In this document: positions 2,066 to 48,817 of the stretch, piece after piece
How positions within the stretch are numbered: the first letter of the stretch is position 1
Layout of the letters: each line of letters starts with the position of its first letter
Source of the DNA: Pseudomonas sp. DTU12.3
GTDB taxonomy: Bacteria > Pseudomonadota > Gammaproteobacteria > Pseudomonadales > Pseudomonadaceae
Assembly: GCF_004124275.1 (NCBI RefSeq)
Contig: NZ_CP027218.1
Span: 1,119,501-1,183,500 of the forward strand
Length of the DNA: 64,000 bases
Direction of reading: 5' to 3'
Notes under the pieces: generated by a model
The model's input: only the letters and a program-made list of their open reading frames with translations
Databases searched by the model: none
What the model was told of the DNA's origin: nothing
Position numbers and translations under genes: made by a program

Positions 2066-3544
2066 TCAGTTGCTGACAAAGTAGTACGCCTGGCGCCCGA
2101 CCATCATGGTCTTCAACACTTTCAGCGGTGCCGCCGGCTCGGTGTCCGCCGAGATCACCGCCACATTGGTGGCTGCCGCAGCGAGAAACTCGCGCAATTG
2201 CGCCTCGGTATCCAATCCCTTCAACACACTCTGCGTATAGAACACACTCGCACCGCCCACCCGTTCATTGGCTTGAAACAACGCAACCTGATGACCGTCC
2301 GCTTGCAACGCTTGAATGTGTTGGGTCAGCGGCAGGAACGACAGGTGTTTATCAGCGTTCGGCAACGTCCACTGTGCGGCAACGAGGTAGCTGCCGATCA
2401 CTACGGTAAGCACAGCAGCGGCCAATGCCTGACGATGCCTCGCGATTCGGCTGACAAAACCATGGGCGGATTCGTACGCTTTCAGCTTGTCGAACAACAC
2501 CCCCGCAAACTCGGCCGCAATCACCGCTGCCGCCGGGGTCATCGACATCAGGTACACCGTGCGTTTACTCGACGCCAACGTCAGCATCACGAATTGCGCA
2601 ACGATCCACAGGCTGAAAAACAGCAGGTATCGGTTGGCCTTCAGTTGTTTGCGAAAATGCCACAGCCCCAGATAAACCAGAATGTTCCACGGCAGAAAGG
2701 CTTCCGGCAGCTTGGCCAGGTAGTAGTAGAACGGCTCATAGTGACCGGCCTCGACGAACGATCCGCTGAAGCGGCCGACGCTGTTGGTCAGCAGCACTTC
2801 CTTCACCGCTTGCGCGCCGCCATGTTGATAGAGCACTGCGAGCCAGATCATCAGCGGAATCAGCCCGACCAGAGTCAGTAATCCTGGCCACAGCCAGTCA
2901 GCGACTTTCAGGCGCTTGTCGAGCAGATTGTCGGCCAGCAAGTAAGCAAAAATCACCACCCCCGGCATCGCCAGCCCCAGCACACCCTTACTCAACGTGG
3001 CGATGGCAATCCCGCCGACAAACAGCAAGGAGTTACCCACGCTCGATGCGCGTTGCGCCTGAAAAAATGCCAGCAACGCCGCTGTTACGCCGAGCGCCAG
3101 CAGCGCATCCTCGCCGACCCCGCGCACGTTGCTCCAATAACTGGCCATGGTCGCCAGCAAAATCCCGGCCGTCCAGGCGATCATTTTTGGCCGTTCGAAA
3201 CGGCGCAACATGCCGTAGAGCAACATCACGCTGAGTAAGCCGGCCACCGCCGACGCCAACCGCACCGCCCACGGCGACACACCGAAAAGCCGCATGGCGC
3301 CGGCATCGAGCCACAAACTCAGCGGTGGTTTTTCCAGAAACGGTTCGCCGAACAACCGAGGTGTCACCCAGTCGTTGTCGAGGTGCATCTCCATGGCGAT
3401 GCCGGCGACGCGAGCCTCGGTGGAGCCTTGCAATTGATGGTTGCCGAGGGCGAAGAAAAACAGCAAAGCGGCAAGCAGAAACAATGAAGTGGCGGCACGC
3501 GACATGGCATTCAGGCAACCGGAAGGGGCGGGAGGCCTGAGCAT
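2066..3544 (-). CDS. ArnT-like family 39 glycosyltransferase
   Basis: A 492-residue polytopic membrane protein. After an N-terminal helix it has the loop GSTEARVAGIAMEM with the acidic residue typical of GT-C/PMT enzymes, then GEPFLEKPPLSLWL, a signature close to ArnT (4-amino-4-deoxy-L-arabinose transferase). About ten more helices and a soluble periplasmic C-terminal part follow. Such enzymes move a sugar from an undecaprenyl carrier to a periplasmic acceptor such as lipid A. No arnBCAD genes are nearby, so the donor sugar is uncertain. An internal start at 3505 (MSRAATSL) is an alternative because neither start has a strong ribosome-binding site. Confidence 0.85.
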   Translation of the reverse strand: MLRPPAPSGCLNAMSRAATSLFLLAALLFFFALGNHQLQGSTEARVAGIAMEMHLDNDWVTPRLFGEPFLEKPPLSLWLDAGAMRLFGVSPWAVRLASAVAGLLSVMLLYGMLRRFERPKMIAWTAGILLATMASYWSNVRGVGEDALLALGVTAALLAFFQAQRASSVGNSLLFVGGIAIATLSKGVLGLAMPGVVIFAYLLADNLLDKRLKVADWLWPGLLTLVGLIPLMIWLAVLYQHGGAQAVKEVLLTNSVGRFSGSFVEAGHYEPFYYYLAKLPEAFLPWNILVYLGLWHFRKQLKANRYLLFFSLWIVAQFVMLTLASSKRTVYLMSMTPAAAVIAAEFAGVLFDKLKAYESAHGFVSRIARHRQALAAAVLTVVIGSYLVAAQWTLPNADKHLSFLPLTQHIQALQADGHQVALFQANERVGGASVFYTQSVLKGLDTEAQLREFLAAAATNVAVISADTEPAAPLKVLKTMMVGRQAYYFVSN

Positions 3545-7859: not shown

Positions 7860-8503
7860 GTTGATGATTATGGACACCTTGGGTCGTCAACCGAGTCAAC
7901 CTGTCAACCAATGTGAAAAAATCAGCCACTACCAAGATCGCGCGGGTTTTGTGCCCCGTGTCTTTCAGATTTGCTCAGGGGCCCGGCGACTTTCCGAGAC
8001 ACTGTGCATTTGCACCGGTGAACGGTGAGTTAACCCGGTTCACCTGTTCACTAAGCTGGGCACCTGTCCGCTAACAAAGTCCGGCGGGTTTCCGGCCCCG
8101 TGTATGTCCCTTCTTCTCGGGGGCCGGAGCCCGACGGAGTCTCCGCTGGAGGGTGTCATTGCTGATGGGGGTGGGGCAAACATATATAGGAAAACCGCGT
8201 GTAACTGGTGTTACAGGTGTAACGTAGCAGCTCAAGTTATTGATTCTATTGGGTAAACTACGCGTTACACTGATTGATTTCTCCTACGGTATGAGGTGTA
8301 GCATTAGCGAGCGGTGTAACGTTTTCATACCCTCTACGGGACAAGGCAGGAGCGCTGCTTGAAGCACAGTACGGCGCACTAGGACTGTAAATACTACTAG
8401 CAGCCATCCACGAGCGACTTTTGCGACCACACCTATTTAGGCAATGTGATGACGTGAGCCAGAAGAGGTTTTGTCAAGGCGCTAAAGATGTCTTGGATAT
8501 GTG
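7860..8503. other. Gene-free stretch left of the IS element
   Basis: No credible coding frame is seen. The stretch holds a GC-rich hairpin (CCGGCCCCG at 8092-8100 with its complement at 8118-8127) and a cluster of GTGTAAC motifs listed separately. It ends at the left inverted repeat of the IS3-family element. Confidence 0.5.
8199..8320. repeat. Cluster of GTGTAAC motifs (iteron-like)
   Basis: GTGTAAC occurs at 8199, 8217 and 8314 on the plus strand and at 8264-8270 on the minus strand, with a close variant GTGTTAC at 8208. Such clusters can be replication-origin iterons or regulator sites. A decayed replication gene (DUF927) lies in the same island, but no link is shown. Confidence 0.4.
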
Positions 8504-9746
<1,243 letters not shown>

Positions 9747-40845: not shown

Positions 40846-41472
40846 TCAACAACGTCCTGCTGCCTTGAGTTTTATGAGCCGCCTCAGGCTTGGGCAGAAC
40901 CTTACATTCTCACAACCGATCACCTCTTGAATCCAGTCGAATTGGGCTTCTCGAACTTGCATTCTGGCGTTTTTCAACGCCTGAAGCGTTGCCATAGCTA
41001 GCACTTCATCTCCGAGTGAAATCCGCACAGGTTCATAGGCGAGAATATCCACCGTCGTAATCAGGCGTAGATTTTCAAAGCGTTCAGAGGAGATCTTGGT
41101 TGCTTTTTTTTCATCAATGACAGCGGTGAAACTGTTGCAATGTGCAAGCGCGAGTGTCGCGGCTTCTCCATCTCCGAGCGAGGCCGCCGTGGATCCGGAT
41201 ACCAAGTCGAAGAAGTGCTCTAATGCAATGCCAGAGAGCTCTTCTCTCTTTAAAATTTGATTATGGATTAGCTCCAAAAGCTGTTTCGGTTCAGGCCGGC
41301 CGTTTGCTGCCCCTAGCTCAATCTCTCGTATTACATTGTCGGTGACGACTATAGGAGTCGGAACTGCTTGCAGGATTGCGCTTGCATGATCGGTCGCCAG
41401 CAAGTTGATGATGACACCGGCGTCAAGAACGAGAATGCTATCTTGATCAGTGAGGCAGCTTGAAAAGGTCAT
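40846..41472 (-). CDS. PIN-domain protein, last gene of the QueC-like operon
   Basis: A 208-residue protein from ATG 41472, which lies inside the 3' end of the XRE-ImmA gene (26-bp overlap). The PIN active-site acidic residues are visible: ILVLDAGVIINLLA, VIREIELG, SLGDGEAATLALA and FTAVIDEKKA, in the order of the DUF3368-type PIN group. PIN proteins are usually RNases and often toxins. The C-terminal 70 residues are an extra part. The adjacent HTH-protease could act as its regulator or activator, which is inference. Confidence 0.82.
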   Translation of the reverse strand: MTFSSCLTDQDSILVLDAGVIINLLATDHASAILQAVPTPIVVTDNVIREIELGAANGRPEPKQLLELIHNQILKREELSGIALEHFFDLVSGSTAASLGDGEAATLALAHCNSFTAVIDEKKATKISSERFENLRLITTVDILAYEPVRISLGDEVLAMATLQALKNARMQVREAQFDWIQEVIGCENVRFCPSLRRLIKLKAAGRC

Positions 41473-42616
41473 CAACTTCATCCTCTTCTGCCTCATCAAG
41501 CAATTCGCGTACTTTCGACCGATCGAGCTTAAGCAAATCAGACATTTGCCCTTCGCTGATTAGATCCTTTTTCCAGGCATCGATAGCTAACAAAAAAAGC
41601 CTGGTTGATTGCGCGCCTTCCATAGGCGTGGAATCGTGAGATATCGTGCCTAGTACCTGCTGGGCTTGGTCGTCGGTTATACCGCCATTATCCATAAACC
41701 AATCCCACGTTCCCTTTTTCGTCAGGTCCAATTCTTCAAGCCTCATCACCATCGCTTGGCGTGAAATGCCAAAGAAACTAGCGAGCAGGATGATGTGCCG
41801 ACGAGTGAGGTGGGTTGATCCAATGGTCACTTCCTTGAACTTTTCCATGACAGTGCGGGCAGGCGTCAGAAAAGCACTACCGAAAGCATTCGCGTAACGC
41901 TCTTCACGCGAGTTCTCATACTTTTCGGCTTGATAGATTTCGGGCTGACGCCGCGTCGCTATAAAGTGCCCTAGCTCGTGGGCGCCAGTCTGGGTTTGAC
42001 GATCCTTCCGATGTACTGCATTTATTAGCATACAGGCGCCGACGGCGTCGTCATAGGCAAATAGCCCAGACACTTTCGATTCAAGTCTCCGGCTATAAAC
42101 ACGAATTCCGAGTTGCATCTCTATGAGTGAAAACAGATTTTGGATGGGGCTCTCACCGAGCCCTAGCCAGCTTCGGAGGCTATGTGCATCGTGCTCTGCT
42201 TGTTTACGTACATCGCCAGGTAAGATGCTTTTTTCGGTCGGATAATTCGAGGTTTTCCGAACGCCCAAAATGTTCTCAAGTTCTACTTCAGCTCTGACGA
42301 GATCATTCAGCATCCGAGCAGCTTGATCGATACCTGCGTCACCAGTGTCTGGGAGTGAGCGGAAACGAGGAACAAGGTCCACATGGACCGCTTCTCGACG
42401 TAGCAACGAGTTGGCAGATAATCCATAACAGCGACTAAGCATCTGGATCTCGTCGAGCCTTGCAGAGCGCTGCCCTTTTTCAATGGCCACGAGAGTGGTT
42501 CGAGCAAAGCCAACTGCTTTGGCAGCTGCGTCTTGAGTCATGGCCGCGGTTTCGCGCGCGACCTTCAGTCGCTCGCCCAGTTCAGCTGGGTTTAGTTCAA
42601 AGTCTGGTTTGGTCAT
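41447..42616 (-). CDS. XRE helix-turn-helix plus ImmA/IrrE metallopeptidase
   Basis: A 389-residue protein from ATG 42616, overlapping the QueC-like stop by 4 bp (ATGA). Residues about 10-70 are an XRE HTH (LGERLKVARETAAMTQDAAA, then VGFARTTLVAIEKGQRS). The centre holds the zinc-peptidase motif TGAHELGHFIATRR (HExxH). Such proteins cleave repressors or antitoxins in response to stress or mobile DNA (ImmA, IrrE). The HTH makes it the obvious binder of the TGACA-N-TGTCA boxes in front of the operon. The C-terminal 130 residues are helical. Confidence 0.88.
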   Translation of the reverse strand: MTKPDFELNPAELGERLKVARETAAMTQDAAAKAVGFARTTLVAIEKGQRSARLDEIQMLSRCYGLSANSLLRREAVHVDLVPRFRSLPDTGDAGIDQAARMLNDLVRAEVELENILGVRKTSNYPTEKSILPGDVRKQAEHDAHSLRSWLGLGESPIQNLFSLIEMQLGIRVYSRRLESKVSGLFAYDDAVGACMLINAVHRKDRQTQTGAHELGHFIATRRQPEIYQAEKYENSREERYANAFGSAFLTPARTVMEKFKEVTIGSTHLTRRHIILLASFFGISRQAMVMRLEELDLTKKGTWDWFMDNGGITDDQAQQVLGTISHDSTPMEGAQSTRLFLLAIDAWKKDLISEGQMSDLLKLDRSKVRELLDEAEEDEVDDLFKLPH

Positions 42617-43986
42617 GATGCGCCATCTATCCACTTCCTCACGAACGACTCTGATCTCATATCGCCCGTGAACGCTGACCATTCCTTGGCATGTTGCTGC
42701 AAGAGCCTGTCAAGGTTCTGCGCCACGGTATGTGGCGACTCGGCCAGAGCTCGAGCCAGTTCGCTCGTTCTGCGGCGTTTGATCAGTTCGTACTGCGAAG
42801 ATTCCCGAATCGAAGAAAGGTGTTCGAAATGAAGCACCCCTGCGATAGCGTATTGTCGCAAGGCTTTAGTAAAACTGGTGAATTCTTTTGCTGCGCCTGT
42901 TTCCCAGGTCGGGCTGTCTAGGGATTCCCATACATAGTTCGTTGGTGGCTCCTCCAATCCTGCAGCGTGAACGCTAAGGCGGCGAAGCATACACGCGGCG
43001 CATATGCCGCACTGTCTTCTTGCGCCTGAAACGGCTACCTGTCGGGATTGCTGCCAGCACGACCTGGTCGTTATCCAATTCACGTTAGGGCCACAGGTTT
43101 CCACAAACTCGCGCAGGGTCTCGCCTTTCGTCATCCAAAGCCTGGGAAAGGTGTACTGGAATCGGTAACCAAGAAGTGCTTCGATAAAGCGCTCCATCAG
43201 CTTGGTGAAGACGGGGTGATTTCGATAGTCCTCATACCCATGTGCAACAGGAAGGAGCACAGGTGCAAGTGCACCTTGTCCGCTTTCGGGGATGATGGCC
43301 ATTGGAGCATCAATTAGATACGCCGCAACTGCCGATATGATGCTGAATTTGAATCCGCGGCTGCGTGCACTTCTCTCAGCGCTTCTTGCATCATCAAGCT
43401 TGACTGAATATGGGATGGCCGTGAATGGAATCCTTTGGCGTTCCTTTTTTGAAATGTCGTGTTGTTTGCTCCCTATTCGAAGACGAATCAGGCGTTTACC
43501 TAGGCGCTTGCTCTCAAGCTCAGAGACCGCACGTGAGTCCATTCCATCACTGAAGGCAATGACAGCCTCTGCATCGGAAGGAAAAGCTATTTGGCCTTGC
43601 GGCGGTCTCTGTGCAGCTTGTTTTCGAGGTCCAAAATTGAAATGCCAGTCGTCTCCGGTCAAAAGGTTCAGTGCGTTGACGAGCGCTCGGTTTACCTTGT
43701 TACTCGACCACCGCTCAACGTCGTGTACTGGAGCGTGAACGATGAATCGACGGCCCCAATTCATGGAACTGCGGACAAGGTAGCGATCACAGAACTCAAC
43801 TGCAGCGGCTATGAGTAGTGCGTCATACGTTACGGGCTCCCATTTGTCATGGGATGAGAAGGATGCGAGAGCCTCGAGGTCGAACTCGATGTTCTTCTCG
43901 ATGTAACACGGGATTACGCCGTTTCTTTTGCGGGCGCTAGGTTCAAGTATATCTACAGCTATTTCCTTAGGCGGGAAGGTGTTCAT
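42613..43986 (-). CDS. QueC-like PP-loop ATPase
   Basis: A 457-residue protein. AVIAFSDGMDSRAVSELE near residue 140 is a PP-loop (SGGxDS variant) and GARRQCGICAACMLRRLSVH near residue 330 is the CxxCxxC zinc site of QueC, the preQ0 synthase. It is much longer than housekeeping QueC (about 230 residues), with an N-terminal 135-residue extension and a helical C-terminus. Defence systems such as Qat and some CBASS loci carry QueC-like enzymes; neither their ATPase, TatD nor cyclase partners are here. It starts on the stop of the 189-residue gene and overlaps the HTH-protease gene. Confidence 0.8.
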   Translation of the reverse strand: MNTFPPKEIAVDILEPSARKRNGVIPCYIEKNIEFDLEALASFSSHDKWEPVTYDALLIAAAVEFCDRYLVRSSMNWGRRFIVHAPVHDVERWSSNKVNRALVNALNLLTGDDWHFNFGPRKQAAQRPPQGQIAFPSDAEAVIAFSDGMDSRAVSELESKRLGKRLIRLRIGSKQHDISKKERQRIPFTAIPYSVKLDDARSAERSARSRGFKFSIISAVAAYLIDAPMAIIPESGQGALAPVLLPVAHGYEDYRNHPVFTKLMERFIEALLGYRFQYTFPRLWMTKGETLREFVETCGPNVNWITTRSCWQQSRQVAVSGARRQCGICAACMLRRLSVHAAGLEEPPTNYVWESLDSPTWETGAAKEFTSFTKALRQYAIAGVLHFEHLSSIRESSQYELIKRRRTSELARALAESPHTVAQNLDRLLQQHAKEWSAFTGDMRSESFVRKWIDGAS

Positions 43987-44555
43987 CACAACGATACCCC
44001 GTCATCAAGACCTTCCATCTTCCTCGGTGGAGCGATTCGTACGGGCTCTGGGCCCACAAGATCCAGACCGAGCTGGGTGCTCGATAGAGTAGAAATGGCA
44101 TTCTGTAGTCTCTTACTCACGTGCTCTGCTCTTTGCTCGTTTGAGTCGCGAAGGTAGTGTTCTTCGATCGACCGTATGTTCGCGTGGCAGCGGTCTTTGG
44201 CGGCGAGGCCTACTGCCTCATGGAATGCTTCAATTCCAAATTTCCCTTCATGGATAAGGGCGATGCTCCATTCCACAAGATTCGTTCCAAAAACGGAGGC
44301 TGCTGCAAATGCTTTCGCATCTTCAAGTTGCGTAAGCGCGATTTCTCGAATTTCCAGAGAGTTATCACAGCCGGTAAACACTGCTTTCAGGGCTTCCATC
44401 AGGAGCCACGAGACCTCCATTTTGAAGTCACTGGCAACTGCATGCTTCGTAGCATCAGCTATCTGGGAGGCATCGTAGGTGTCTTTGTCCGCACGCTTTG
44501 CCAGTTCTTTCCATGGCTTTCGCAGCTTCAAGCTTCTATGTGGCCCATCGCTCAT
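43986..44555 (-). CDS. Unknown helical protein, first gene of the QueC-like operon
   Basis: A 189-residue protein starting MSDGPHRSLKLRKPWKELAK, with GGGGG about 10 nt upstream of the ATG at 44555. It is helical throughout with no recognisable motif, and has a Pro/Arg-rich tail (GPEPVRIAPPRKMEGLDDG). The stop shares a base with the start of the QueC-like gene, so the two are translationally coupled. It may be a partner or substrate of that enzyme; this is inferred from position only. Confidence 0.7.
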   Translation of the reverse strand: MSDGPHRSLKLRKPWKELAKRADKDTYDASQIADATKHAVASDFKMEVSWLLMEALKAVFTGCDNSLEIREIALTQLEDAKAFAAASVFGTNLVEWSIALIHEGKFGIEAFHEAVGLAAKDRCHANIRSIEEHYLRDSNEQRAEHVSKRLQNAISTLSSTQLGLDLVGPEPVRIAPPRKMEGLDDGVSL

Positions 44556-44582
44556 TTCGTCCAGCCCCCAGTGAATACCGGT

Positions 44583-44627
44583 TTTGACATTGTCAGATAT
44601 TAGTACTAAAAATCTGACAATGTCAAA
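44583..44627 (-). promoter_or_regulatory. Promoter within a perfect inverted repeat, operator of the QueC-like operon
   Basis: A 16-bp perfect inverted repeat, TTTGACATTGTCAGAT (44583-44598) and its complement (44612-44627), has a 13-bp spacer. Each arm itself contains a palindrome TGACA-N-TGTCA. On the minus strand TTGACA is followed after 18 bp by TAATAT, a good sigma-70 promoter ending 28 bp or so before the leader of the 44555 start. A dimeric HTH protein on either box would block the promoter. Confidence 0.8.
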
Positions 44628-44715
44628 GGCGCAATTGGAAACAAGGATGTGCCCGATGATTTCGGTTTCTCAATAGAGTAGAAGCTGATTTTCGTCAGCG
44701 CATAGGACATGCCAT

Positions 44716-45392
44716 TTATGCGCGGGGGGTACGGATGAGTCGGTAGCCTTCAATGCAAAACCAATCTGAGTCTCTGAGCCCTTCGTACAGGGCAGTTTTC
44801 CAAGAGTTGGTGTCACGGGCGTATCTCGAACGAAATTGACCATCAAGATGCTGGCGAACCCCATCGGGGCCTGAGCTAGCCCCGACCTCCTCAAGCGAAT
44901 AAGAGATATCTGCCATTTCACTGGCAGCTTGTGCAGCGTAGAGCTCACCGAGGCCCATAACTCGAAAATGATGATGCACGCGTTTTGTGAGCACTTCACT
45001 CCATGTCCCCGCAGGACGTACGGCAAAGGATATCGTTGGTGGCGAAGATGCCCGAACTTCAACAACGAGCCAGCGCTCATTGCCCAGGTTGTCATAGTAA
45101 GGATGTAGGGTTTGATCCTCGGCTCTCGTGGCAACCCCCGCAAGCTTGCGTTTGTTGCAGTCTGAGCAAGCAGGGACAAGGTTGGCCGGTGTCAAATTGA
45201 GCTTGGGGTGGCGAGTTTGAGGCAAGTAATGGTCAACCGTGGCGACGGTCCTCTGAGCACACAATGGACAAATGCCGAACTCAGGAGCCATTCTGATCTG
45301 CTCATAAAGTGATCTTGACGGTGACCCCTTCCGGGCAAAGTGCGACTTGTAGATTATTCCCATCAAGTCTGCATTGAGCTGTGGGGTCACTG
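44716..45392 (-). pseudogene. HNH endonuclease gene, 5' end removed by the IS element
   Basis: The remaining 225 residues hold an HNH core: GICPLCAQRTVATVDHYLPQ, then LTPANLVPACSDCNKRKL. The two CxxC pairs and DH/N match the Cys4-HNH type. At 45392 the frame runs into the inverted repeat of the IS3-family element, and the residues beyond come from the IS. No start lies between the IS and the HNH motif with a good ribosome-binding site. HNH genes of this kind often follow an ATPase or helicase gene, and a UvrD remnant lies on the far side of the IS. Confidence 0.7.
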
Positions 45393-45454
45393 TGAATCGC
45401 CCCTGGTTTCGTAGACACCTCTTTGCCTTAAACTGAGGCCAATTAGGAGGTGTC

Positions 45455-45733
45455 ATGAGCAACCCGCGTTACCCCGAAGAATTCAAAACCCAAGCGGTCA
45501 ATCAAGTGACTGAAAAGAAGCTGCCTGTCGCTGATGTAGCGGCACGTCTTGGCGTGTCGACGCATAGCCTCTATGCCTGGATAAAGCGCTACAGCAAACC
45601 TCAAGAGGAGCGGCAGCAGGACGATGATCAGCACGCCGAACTGCGTCGTCTGCGAGCGGAACTCAAGCGGGTCACTGAAGAGCGAGACATCTTAAAAAAG
45701 GCCGCCGCGTACTTTGCCAAGGAGTGCGGCTGA
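45455..45733 (+). CDS. IS3-family OrfA
   Basis: A 92-residue transposase-type HTH protein (MSNPRYPEEFKTQAVNQVTE, then VADVAARLGVSTHSLYAWIK) ending in a leucine zipper. GGAGG lies 7 nt before the ATG. The A-run A6G at 45694-45700 is the expected slippage site for making the OrfAB transposase. Confidence 0.92.
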   Translation: MSNPRYPEEFKTQAVNQVTEKKLPVADVAARLGVSTHSLYAWIKRYSKPQEERQQDDDQHAELRRLRAELKRVTEERDILKKAAAYFAKECG

Positions 45734-46605
45734 AGTACGCCTTTATCAAGCAGCGAGCAGGCGACTATTCCATACGACGGCTTTGCCTGACGCTGAAAGT
45801 CCACCCCAGTGGTTATTACGCTTGGTTGTCTGAGCCGCAATCTGCACGCGCTAAAGACGACCAGCGATTGCTGGGTTTGATCAAGCATTCATGGCTGGAG
45901 AGCGGCGGAGTTTATGGCTATCGCAAAATCCATGACGATCTGCGCGAGGTCGGTGAAGATTGTGGTCGGCATCGTGTGGCGAGGCTGATGCGTCTTGAGG
46001 GTCTGCGCTCTCAGACAGGGTATCGACGACGCCCTGGAAAGTACGGCGGTAAGCCAGCGGTTGCCTCACCCAATTTGCTGAAGCGCCAGTTCGATGTCGT
46101 AGAACCCAACAAGGTTTGGGTCACCGACATCACCTACATTCGTACTTATGAGGGCTGGCTGTATTTGGCTGTGGTCCTGGATCTGTTTTCTCGTCAGGTC
46201 GTTGGCTGGTCAATGAAGTCGCAAATGACCAGTGATTTGGCCATTGATGCGTTATTGATGGCGGTTTGGAGGCGTAAACCGAAACAGGAGGTGATGGTTC
46301 ACTCCGACCAAGGCAGCCAGTACAGCAGCACCGATTGGCGCAGCTTTTTGAAGGCGAACAATTTAGTTGCCAGCATGAGTCGCCGAGGCAACTGTCATGA
46401 CAACGCCGTGGCCGAGAGCTTTTTCCAGCTTCTAAAGCGGGAACGAATCAAGCGGAAAATCTACACCACGCGGGAAGATGCTCGTAGTGATGTGTTCGAT
46501 TACATCGAGATGTTCTACAACGCAAAACGCCGGCATGGTTTCAACAATCAGCTGTCACCGATAGAGTTTGAAAAGCGTTACGCAATGAGCTTGAAAGGTG
46601 TCTAG
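45724..46605 (+). CDS. IS3-family OrfB transposase
   Basis: A 293-residue OrfB in the -1 frame relative to OrfA, overlapping it by 10 bp. It has the HTH_21 region (GGVYGYRKIHDDLRE) and the DDE core: [23 protein letters not shown] and NCHDNAVAESFFQLLKRE. It would mainly be made as OrfAB by slippage at 45694-45700. It appears intact. Confidence 0.93.
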   Translation: MRLKYAFIKQRAGDYSIRRLCLTLKVHPSGYYAWLSEPQSARAKDDQRLLGLIKHSWLESGGVYGYRKIHDDLREVGEDCGRHRVARLMRLEGLRSQTGYRRRPGKYGGKPAVASPNLLKRQFDVVEPNKVWVTDITYIRTYEGWLYLAVVLDLFSRQVVGWSMKSQMTSDLAIDALLMAVWRRKPKQEVMVHSDQGSQYSSTDWRSFLKANNLVASMSRRGNCHDNAVAESFFQLLKRERIKRKIYTTREDARSDVFDYIEMFYNAKRRHGFNNQLSPIEFEKRYAMSLKGV

Positions 46606-46986: not shown

Positions 46987-48255
46987 CTATCGTACTGATA
47001 CCGCTTTTAACCTCGTAGCTGCCTGGGTGGCCGACATAGACAAACTACCCATACCTGCTCGGTGAATATGCTCACTCCACCATTTCATCATTGGTCTTCT
47101 GCGTTCAATGTAATCCGCACGATTGTAGGCGCTACGCACCTCATCTTTGTCCACGTGCGCAAGTGCGACCTCGATCAACTCGGGGTCCCATCCCTGTTCG
47201 TTGAGGATGGTACTGGCCATGGAGCGCATGCCATGGCTCACCAAGCGCCCTTCAAAGCCCATCCGTTTCAGGGCCATGTTTGCCGTCTGGCTATTGCAGT
47301 GAGTTCGTGGGTCTCTGTCGGCTGGGAACACGTACTCTCTGTGTCCGCTGTAGGGCTTGATCGTCTCTATCAGAGCAAGTGCGTGTTCGGTCAGCGGTAT
47401 GACGTGAGCGCGTCGCTTCTTCATACGTTCCGCCGGGATCGTCCAGATTTTCTTGTCGAGGTCGATGTCAGCCCAGGACGTCGTGGCGGCTTCCGCAGGG
47501 CGGGTCATGGTGTGGAGTTGCCATTCGATCAGGCAGCGGGTTGTTCTCTTTATGCTCGCATTGGCGATGGCGACCATTAACTCTGGCAGCTCTTCCGGGC
47601 GGAGGGCTGCCATGTTCTGCTTTTTCGGCTTCTTGAAAACGGCCCGAATGCCGCTGAGCGGATTGGCAAAGATCATTCCCGAGTTCACACCGTAGGTCAT
47701 GATCTCGTTGAGTCGTTGGGTCAGTCGCTTCACTGTCTCCAGGCTGCCTTTGGTTTCCAAAGGGCGCAGCAGCTCGATGACCCTCGGGGCATTGATCTGC
47801 GAGATAGGTGTTGTTCCCAGCGATGGAAAGACATGCAGCGTAAGCGAGCGCCAGATGTCCTCGGCATACGCCTGAGTGACCGAATCTTTTTTCAGTTCAA
47901 ACCAGGCAGATGCCACGTTCTCGAACGTGTGCTCGGTTGCCTGCCTTTTTGTCTGCTCCAACTCGCTACGTTGTTCTTTCGGATCGATGCCCTGGGCGAG
48001 AAGCTCTCTGGCTTCGACCGTCTTCTTCCTGGCTTGCGCGAGTGAGAGCTCTGGATAGGTGCCGAGGCCCATATTGATGCGGTTCTTGGTGATCGGCTGC
48101 CGATAGTTGAAATTCCAGAGCGTCGAACCATTGACCCTCACGCGCAGCTGTAAACCGTCTCCATCGCTGAGGACGTAGTCCTTGTCTTTCGGCTTTACCG
48201 CTTTGAGCTGGCGGTCAGAGAGGCGGGTGGCTTGGGCGCACATGAGGTGTTCCAT
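46987..48255 (-). CDS. P4-type tyrosine integrase at ssrA
   Basis: From ATG 48255 the product is 422 residues (ATG 48243, MCAQATRLSDRQ, is an alternative; the open frame reaches 48393). An N-terminal DUF4102-type domain (LSDRQLKAVKPKDKDYVLSD) is followed by a SAM-like core-binding domain and the catalytic domain with HTMTRPAEAAT (Arg), VSHGMRSMASTILNE (HxxR) and ALAHVDKDEVRSAYNRAD (His and Tyr). It lies about 170 bp from the ssrA 3' end, pointing away from it, the normal layout for an element integrated in ssrA. It is the only integrase in the region. Confidence 0.93.
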   Translation of the reverse strand: MEHLMCAQATRLSDRQLKAVKPKDKDYVLSDGDGLQLRVRVNGSTLWNFNYRQPITKNRINMGLGTYPELSLAQARKKTVEARELLAQGIDPKEQRSELEQTKRQATEHTFENVASAWFELKKDSVTQAYAEDIWRSLTLHVFPSLGTTPISQINAPRVIELLRPLETKGSLETVKRLTQRLNEIMTYGVNSGMIFANPLSGIRAVFKKPKKQNMAALRPEELPELMVAIANASIKRTTRCLIEWQLHTMTRPAEAATTSWADIDLDKKIWTIPAERMKKRRAHVIPLTEHALALIETIKPYSGHREYVFPADRDPRTHCNSQTANMALKRMGFEGRLVSHGMRSMASTILNEQGWDPELIEVALAHVDKDEVRSAYNRADYIERRRPMMKWWSEHIHRAGMGSLSMSATQAATRLKAVSVR

Positions 48256-48292
48256 GACATCAATTGGTATTCCAAAAATTACCACTGAAGGG

Positions 48293-48316
48293 CTTGGAAT
48301 ACCATCTGGAATACCC
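48293..48316. promoter_or_regulatory. Candidate arm-type site upstream of the integrase gene
   Basis: CTTGGAATACC then ATCTGGAATACCC, matching 18884-18907 at 23 of 24 positions. A further inverted half, GGTATTCCAA, lies at 48267-48276. Binding by the integrase here could also repress its own promoter. Confidence 0.55.
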
Positions 48317-48391
48317 GATGTCGTGGATTGTGCCGGACGTCCATGGACGCTAATAGACCCTAAAGCCTTGATTTTGCTGGATTTCAGGCAC

Positions 48392-48415
48392 AAAAAAAGA
48401 CGTCCGTGGACGTCT
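48392..48415 (-). terminator. Terminator now serving ssrA
   Basis: On the minus strand, 14 nt after the CCA end of tmRNA, the stem AGACGTCC/GGACGTCT (48398-48415) is followed by seven T. It belongs to the island side of the junction and would replace the original ssrA terminator. Confidence 0.85.
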
Positions 48416-48428
48416 TTAGATGATGAAG

Positions 48429-48817
48429 TGGTGGAGCCGGGGGGATTTGAACCCCCGTCCGCCAGTACTCCGCTGTCGGTACTACATGCGTAGCCGTTTC
48501 TATTAAGTTAACCCTCAGCGACCCGAAGGGCAGGGTGCTTTGGGCGAGTTGTGTAAGTTTTAGCCGCTTCGTCCACAACGTACTGCACGGCGATTCTGTT
48601 CTATATGACAATCATTTTGGGTTTACAGACATCCCCTGATGATTGCTGGACCCGAAGGTACCAGGAGCATTGTCAGCTGCAATTAAGCAGCGAGAGCAAC
48701 ACCGTATTGGTCGTCATTGGCAACTATAAGTAGTTGCAACAGTGGATTTACGACTTCTGTTACCAAGTCGGCATGCACCTAAAGTTTCGCAACCGGCGTC
48801 GAATCCTAAACGGCCCC
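48429..48817 (-). ncRNA. ssrA: Transfer-messenger RNA (tmRNA)
   Basis: The 389-nt RNA begins GGGGCCGTTTAGGATTCGAC and ends with a tRNA-like T-arm GTTCAAATCCCC and CCACCA. The mRNA-like part encodes the tag ANDDQYGVALAA followed by TAA. With SmpB it rescues stalled ribosomes and tags the unfinished protein for degradation. Its 3' end is the attachment site of the neighbouring island and remains complete after integration. smpB is about 9.6 kb away. Confidence 0.98.

Follow-up and report, generated by a model that had tools for sequence, protein, structure and literature searches.

Several of the systems closest to the locus described here rely on an XRE-type protein and on an ImmA-like peptidase. 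For XRE-COG2856 fusions, a LexA-like role and a link to PIN toxins have been proposed, as a passage of PMC2701414 puts it. The peptidase ImmA cleaves the repressor ImmR, a similar cleavage of the HTH part having been suggested for Rosmer-like antitoxins (in the relevant part of PMC10440598), and PprI/IrrE is reported to cleave DdrO (PMC10904395, in part). As for QueC-like enzymes, that of type IV CBASS modifies the N-terminal glycine of its partner (MGGS), and Qat has been proposed to act on an N-terminal glycine likewise (MGTS), according to passages of PMC13279940, which describe the role of QueC-family proteins in further defence systems, type IV CBASS apart, as unknown or open. Moreover, qatA and qatD lie near only about a third of the QatC cluster of PMC13329287, as stated in its main text, and this leaves room for operons in which a gene of no assigned family (g1) is followed by a QatC-like, an XRE and a PIN gene; XRE, ImmA and toxin are not mentioned in that main text.

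An operon of this kind lies in Pseudomonas sp. DTU12.3, in the stretch of 64,000 nucleotides that was analysed as a whole and is hereafter called the window. It consists of four minus-strand genes with overlapping ends: g1 (43986-44555), the QatC/QueC-like g2 (42613-43989), the XRE-ImmA gene g3 (41447-42616), whose product is the proposed repressor, antitoxin and protease, and g4 (40846-41472), which encodes a PIN-like putative nuclease, the proposed toxin. The g2 protein (458 aa) matches the Pfam QueC model (29.3 bits, cut-off 22) and the QatC chains 9zee and 9vlk of the PDB; its score against the NCBIfam QatC model, 119.9 bits, is below the curated cut-off of 280 and thus falls short of the QatC family score. 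The g3 protein (389 aa) combines Pfam HTH_3 and Peptidase_M78 and matches the RmrA models of PADLOC with up to 92.3 bits (E 6.5e-27; PADLOC shows no curated cut-off). Its true start is probably the ATG at 42616, overlapping the g2 stop, because the match in many homologues begins only there; the list of open reading frames extends g3 to 42682. In the g3 alignment the HExxH motif (213-217; H213, E214, H217) and the downstream E239 are invariant in 27/27 proteins, while the predicted structure (mean pLDDT 42) was unusable. The g4 protein (208 aa if its start is at 41472) matches PADLOC PDC-S70, no RmrT model having matched; acidic residues of PIN type are conserved in the alignment, and Pfam PIN matches 10 of the 24 aligned members (E <=0.1), the window's own g4 not being among them. 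QatA and QatD models were absent from the hits of the scanned window genes (seven genes against Pfam, five against PADLOC).

In front of this operon, the sequence-only reading had described a perfect 16-bp inverted repeat containing two TGACA-N-TGTCA boxes, and the sequence reads as claimed. The left arm, TTTGACATTGTCAGAT (44583-44598, plus strand), is the exact reverse complement of the right arm (44612-44627), and each arm encloses an 11-bp palindrome, on the plus strand TGACATTGTCA at 44585-44595 and TGACAATGTCA at 44615-44625; the repeat finder drew wider arms, 44574-44601 and 44609-44636, with 82% identity over 28 nt. The minus-strand promoter TTGACA-N18-TAATAT that had been read over the boxes was recovered by a promoter scan (44597-44626, with TTGACA at 44626, a spacer of 18 nt and TAATAT ending at 44597; 10/12 consensus matches). 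The region scanned, 44300-44900, gave two promoter-like sites against 0.6 expected from shuffles, the second being TTGACA-18-AAAAAT on the plus strand, likewise 10/12. As placed from the -10, transcription would start at about 44590, some 35 nt before the g1 ATG (44555). On the minus strand, box 1 (O1, 44615-44625) reads TGACATTGTCA and overlaps the -35 TTGACA (44626-44621), and box 2 (O2, 44585-44595) reads TGACAATGTCA and covers the predicted transcription start; the -35 and the start site are the positions that a repressor would need to cover. The repeat was also considered as an mRNA hairpin, a reading which was rejected since box 2 alone would be transcribed and most homologues are without a long inverted repeat.

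The number of boxes in the window is by itself not unusual: TGACANTGTCA with <=1 mismatch has only two matches there, the TGACATTGTCA and TGACAATGTCA boxes, both exact, and shuffled sequence gives a mean of 2.06 matches at the same tolerance. Across the whole 6.27-Mb genome, TGACANTGTCA occurs at five palindromic places, two of which are at the g1 promoter, 30 bp apart; the other three have a C/G centre, the A/T-centred form being restricted to the g1 promoter. The main evidence that the boxes are not due to chance is their conservation in distant operons.

Homologous loci were collected from several sources. A scan of the GTDB genome collection with g1 disclosed 11 loci in Pseudomonas, Bradyrhizobium, Thauera and Janthinobacterium, and tblastn on plasmids gave 16 records for g1 and 135 for g3. 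Among the 23 plasmid stretches examined, 20 carry the module; the remaining three (L168-L170) harbor XRE-ImmA genes of 28% identity, outside the module and without g1 and QueC. XRE orthologues (E <=1e-40) were found in 6/249 genomes of the genus, 4/398 of the phylum, 8/347 of the order of one hit and 2/274 of the class, the source genome being counted in the genus, phylum and class sets and the phylum and order sets sharing two genomes. Together with 15 whole-genome stretches and the window itself, the 11 GTDB and 20 plasmid loci form a module set of 47, several of which are the same contig reached twice; a non-redundant set (g1 <85% similar) comprises 30 loci. All 47 loci share the order g1-QueC-XRE, and tblastn detected a g4 relative in each, behind g3 by coordinates; g1 itself, whose identity to the window copy goes down to 17%, was found by tblastn in 34 loci and assigned by position in 13. 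The g1 starts are those annotated (with the only exception of L166), and in unannotated loci a start preceding x-D-G was preferred. Some copies are apparently damaged (g1 of 112 aa in L156; QueC annotated as fragments, or short, in L152 and L164), and in L161 the g4 relative lies on the plus strand at 8144-8704 by tblastn, where the record annotates an open reading frame on the opposite strand, so that this copy may be damaged or misannotated.

The module spans Gamma-, Beta- and Alphaproteobacteria, given the classes to which we take Thauera and Janthinobacterium to belong, and 20/47 loci are records of the plasmid collection. Several module loci adjoin genes annotated as toxin-antitoxin, restriction or abortive-infection genes. 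The XRE protein had no match in viral contigs and two weak partial matches only in phages, and no match was found in E. coli at the DNA level.

The scan of homologous operons that had been suggested as a check found the boxes conserved in Gamma-, Beta- and Alphaproteobacteria. This bears out an operator that had been predicted from the bare sequence, and the lack of conservation named beforehand as a refutation did not occur. In the 130 bp upstream of g1, the full TGACA-N-TGTCA is present at 11/30 non-redundant loci (2 matches elsewhere) and TGACA-N-TGTC at 16/30 (4 matches elsewhere), the background amounting to 575,976 strand-bases. A widened class, TTGAC[AT][AT]TGTC or TTGACATGTC, is found at 27/30 loci (44/47 overall) with a single match elsewhere; it was framed after inspecting the same loci, to be read beside the unwidened counts of 16/30 and 11/30. 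The three misses are each one base off (L154 TTGACATTGTT, L167 TCGACATTGTC, L198 TTGACAATGTT); the box of L164 is TTGACTTTGTC, and L166 fits the placement only with a g1 start at 3064, against the annotated 2995. The identity of 94% within the box and the column scores come from loci selected for the box and are therefore not evidence on their own.

In the genus, a loose operator pattern was found in 10 of the 249 genomes, against 2 for a reversed-pattern control. In 6 of the 10 the operator is adjacent to g1, and the genomes with an XRE orthologue are these six and no others; the remaining four have none of g1-g4 within their 3-kb loci. In viral contigs the loose pattern occurs in at least 120 stretches, none of the 120 listed encoding g1-g4 (one has a weak integrase match), which indicates that the pattern is unspecific in a very large collection.

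The double palindrome pointed out at the outset stands in part: the boxes are conserved before homologous operons, whereas 16-bp arms with two full palindromes are confined to close Pseudomonas copies. Pseudomonas indica has two full boxes with shorter arms (L011), and L198 has two variant boxes. Most of the remaining loci either retain box 2 as a half-site that merges with the ribosome-binding site or have the further half-site upstream; in many cases the Shine-Dalgarno GGAG takes the place of the right half of box 2. The conserved core consists of the -35 box and, at a distance of about three helical turns, a half-site. With the first T of the -35 box as reference for the offsets, the exact half-sites besides box 1 are mainly TGACA at +31/32 in 19/30 loci and TGTCA at -23 in 9/30; the next most frequent, TGTCA at +37, occurs in 2 loci and corresponds to the right half of a full box 2. 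Each main offset places the half-site 30-31 bp away from its counterpart in box 1, near three helical turns, a phasing that suggests neighbouring dimers on one face of the DNA. A second dimer at box 2 is uncertain, since box 2 is a half-site in most loci.

The layout varies with the recognition helix of the XRE protein. Loci with an ARTT helix have an exact downstream TGACA in 18/19 cases and a half-site at -23 in 0/19, with exceptions showing an upstream half-site at -24 (L190) or -25 (L167). Those with an SRPT helix have the -23 half-site (at least 6/8 bases) in 10/10 cases and an exact downstream half-site in 1/10; seven of these ten carry a TTGACT variant, found in 0/19 ARTT loci, and keep TTGTC, the A-type box being kept in the other three. 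Since two clades are involved, these counts are not independent, and Fisher values overstate their independence. A further type is represented by L198, whose XRE protein is 39-40% identical and has a KRPS helix: in its boxes, TTGACAATGTTA and TAACAATGTTA, three of the four half-sites are changed alike, the unchanged fourth being the -35 half. The half-site spacing is 33 in L167 and L198. In the SRPT clade (L162-L166, L171, L172, L191, L194-L196), a TGTCAGAT-like site is located 30 bp upstream of the right half of the -35 box, possibly an activator-like position.

Taken as a whole, it is quite probable that this region is the autoregulatory operator-promoter of a mobile module, bound by XRE-ImmA dimers, with an ImmA-driven release as the proposed way out of repression. 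The comparison of sequences shows the conservation of the box, its phasing, the link between layout and helix clade, and the absence of A/T-centred boxes from the rest of the genome. As to the boxes, the best reading would be that the XRE-ImmA protein encoded in the operon binds them, and repression and cooperativity by the same protein are what we infer. Autorepression is argued for by the fact that no HTH protein other than that of g3 is shared by the 47 module loci, that the box class is found near g3 itself in 0/47 loci, and that the relatives with 28% identity (L168-L170) lack the g1-operator box; the match between layout and helix clade points the same way indirectly. In L169, a different palindrome, TTGACATAGAATGTC, was seen by eye upstream of 4989 at a -35-like place; it may represent the same layout with another operator.

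According to the proposed mechanism, XRE-ImmA dimers would occupy the -35 box and, in a cooperative manner, also a second site at a distance of about three helical turns. The bound dimers would hide both the -35 and the start site, leaving a near-consensus promoter almost silent. As g3 sits inside the operon and has no such box itself, XRE-ImmA would repress its own operon in a negative feedback, as in toxin-antitoxin operons. Upon stress or infection, the ImmA domain might inactivate the HTH part, in cis or in trans, so that transcription would rise and the PIN toxin be freed. The proteolytic release and its trigger, perhaps a virus, may be conjectured at this stage; release by the peptidase is made plausible by the invariance of the zinc motif in the g3 proteins, and this putative step agrees with earlier proposals. 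Reporter output from the g1 promoter would then read the state of the XRE-ImmA switch.

The main rival to peptidase release is a toxin-antitoxin feedback without self-proteolysis: the boxes would bind XRE-ImmA as a classical type II toxin-antitoxin complex, with the PIN protein as co-repressor, derepression through turnover of the antitoxin by host proteases, and a structural or sensory ImmA domain. The arrangement expected of type II systems is indeed present, i.e., an antitoxin-type HTH gene adjoining a PIN-like gene (the proposed toxin) on mobile DNA, and g4 closely follows g3 in 47/47 module loci (tblastn). In addition, XRE-COG2856 fusions adjoining PIN toxins have been predicted to be toxin-antitoxin systems (in the part of PMC2701414 that deals with them), and RmrA, which has an ImmA domain, is described as a confirmed antitoxin in a passage of PMC10440598. 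However, HExxH and the glutamate are kept in all 27 aligned proteins, as for an active enzyme rather than a scaffold. This alternative deserves to be taken seriously, though on balance we would not expect it to hold.

It might also be supposed that the conservation reflects a strong sigma-70 promoter alone, with no operator at all. In its left half the box is identical with the -35 consensus, which selection would keep regardless, and a bare TTGACA is found upstream of g1 in 22/30 loci, yet it has 78 matches elsewhere. Against this, the TGTC past the -35 and the half-sites at -23 and +31/32 recur and are not promoter elements, whereas pairwise identity, in 23 loci picked for the strict box, is 37% in the spacer and 25% in the upstream flank. 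Moreover, the seven loci with TTGACT have a worse -35 and still keep TTGTC. With the TGTC half and the phased half-sites recurring next to a drifting spacer and flank, a promoter-only conservation was rejected as very improbable. Slightly less credible again is the use of the boxes by another host regulator, whose chances are small given that A/T-centred boxes are found nowhere else in the genome and that the layout accompanies the module in Gamma-, Beta- and Alphaproteobacteria alike. The least credible reading is that of matS-like MatP sites; the E. coli consensus of matS, GTGACATTGTCAC, shares the core of the boxes, and its degenerate 13-bp form is GTGACRNYGTCAC. A printed matS contains TGACATTGTCA (in a part of PMC8669397), but the outer G/C of matS is absent from both boxes, the degenerate form occurs at 4 genomic places with none at the g1 promoter, and the homologous operators are found on rhizobial plasmids and comprise TTGACATGTCA, TTGACTTTGTC and TAACAATGTTA, which break matS. 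Both the host regulon and matS were rejected by the genome counts of the box and matS patterns. When the operator letters were looked up in the literature, MatP/matS was the only bacterial DNA-binding-site context recognised, by title, among the matches listed.

Besides the proposed XRE-ImmA switch, g1 stands out, a protein of 189 aa, mostly helical in its model and with low-confidence, possibly disordered ends. The best of five structure models reached a pLDDT of 82, the remaining four 42-45. With this model, Foldseek returned no match at E 0.001, and VIA-align gave middling helical matches, QatB being absent from those listed. The g1 profile found nothing convincing among PDB sequences (best E 0.036), and in a PADLOC scan of 26 g1 members seven families were hit by one member each (best 0.00026), which was treated as chance. 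In the alignment of 26 sequences, M1, D3 and G4 are the only invariant residues, and M-x-D-G starts g1 in 47/47 loci (residue 2 is S in 35, T in 10, R in 1 and Q in 1); this N-terminus is of low confidence in the sole usable model. At the start of a protein that otherwise evolves fast and whose gene immediately precedes a QatC-like one, M-x-D-G is a candidate tag for N-terminal modification, parallel to MGGS and MGTS rather than a match to them, since the glycine is residue 4, not 2. It is tempting, if doubtful, to picture a defence module in which the QatC-like enzyme would add a deazaguanine-type group to the g1 N-terminus, and the modified g1, as sensor or trigger, would cause self-cleavage or release of XRE-ImmA, opening the promoter and freeing the PIN protein. 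If this were true, the two-box promoter would be a readout of protein-nucleobase modification.

As for the genomic setting, a tyrosine integrase (46987-48393) directly adjoins the 3' end of a tmRNA gene (48429-48817), and the operon would appear to be carried on an island that integrated at ssrA; no 14-mer copy of the ssrA 3' end, as a second attachment repeat, was found within the window. Just upstream of the operon, at 44716-45462, lies an HNH protein of the candidate defence family PDC-M01B, of which residues 148-248 alone have matches in L003-L005 and L009, with no match in the examined stretches of L006-L008, L010, L012 and L013. An IS3-type transposase pair (45455-46605), recognised by eye from the translations of open reading frames, separates the HNH gene from the integrase. 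The box marks a mobile module in which a QatC-like enzyme is combined with a proposed protease-antitoxin and a putative nuclease, and since the role of the QueC family beyond type IV CBASS is described as open (in a passage of PMC13279940), the g1 promoter makes one case testable.

The four-gene module was not found in open PMC full texts (without supplements), among the matches listed. Several known systems resemble it. In the CapH/CapP pair, an XRE repressor is inactivated by an ImmA/IrrE-type metallopeptidase. The same likeness holds for ImmR/ImmA and DdrO/IrrE, as described in parts of PMC2701414 and PMC10904395. In all three pairs the repressor and the protease are separate proteins, whereas g3 is one chain. 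C proteins of restriction-modification systems, which are small, offer another comparison. Their operators (C boxes) lie in the operon's own promoter and are bound cooperatively by the HTH protein that the operon encodes (PMC3874152, in part), as is proposed for XRE-ImmA. However, C proteins also activate, whereas the -35 is here already consensus and the HTH is fused to a protease. The first half of the operon resembles qatABCD, in that a QueC-like protein of QatC type is preceded by a small, helical protein conserved at its very N-terminus; yet QatB begins with MGTS (in a passage of PMC13279940) and g1 with M-x-D-G, and g2 is followed in 47/47 loci by XRE-ImmA and a PIN-like protein instead of the ATPase and TatD DNase of Qat. 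The second half resembles RosmerTA (RmrA/RmrT) of the XRE-COG2856/PIN class, in which a fused XRE-ImmA likewise precedes a PIN-like protein (parts of PMC2701414 and PMC10440598). It differs from RosmerTA in that g1 and the QatC-like gene come first in 47/47 loci, with the conserved box before g1, and in that the window's g4 matches PDC-S70 and not the RmrT model. An XRE-ImmA protein adjoining a PIN protein was already known, and the operator adds a new example to a type of circuit that is known as well.
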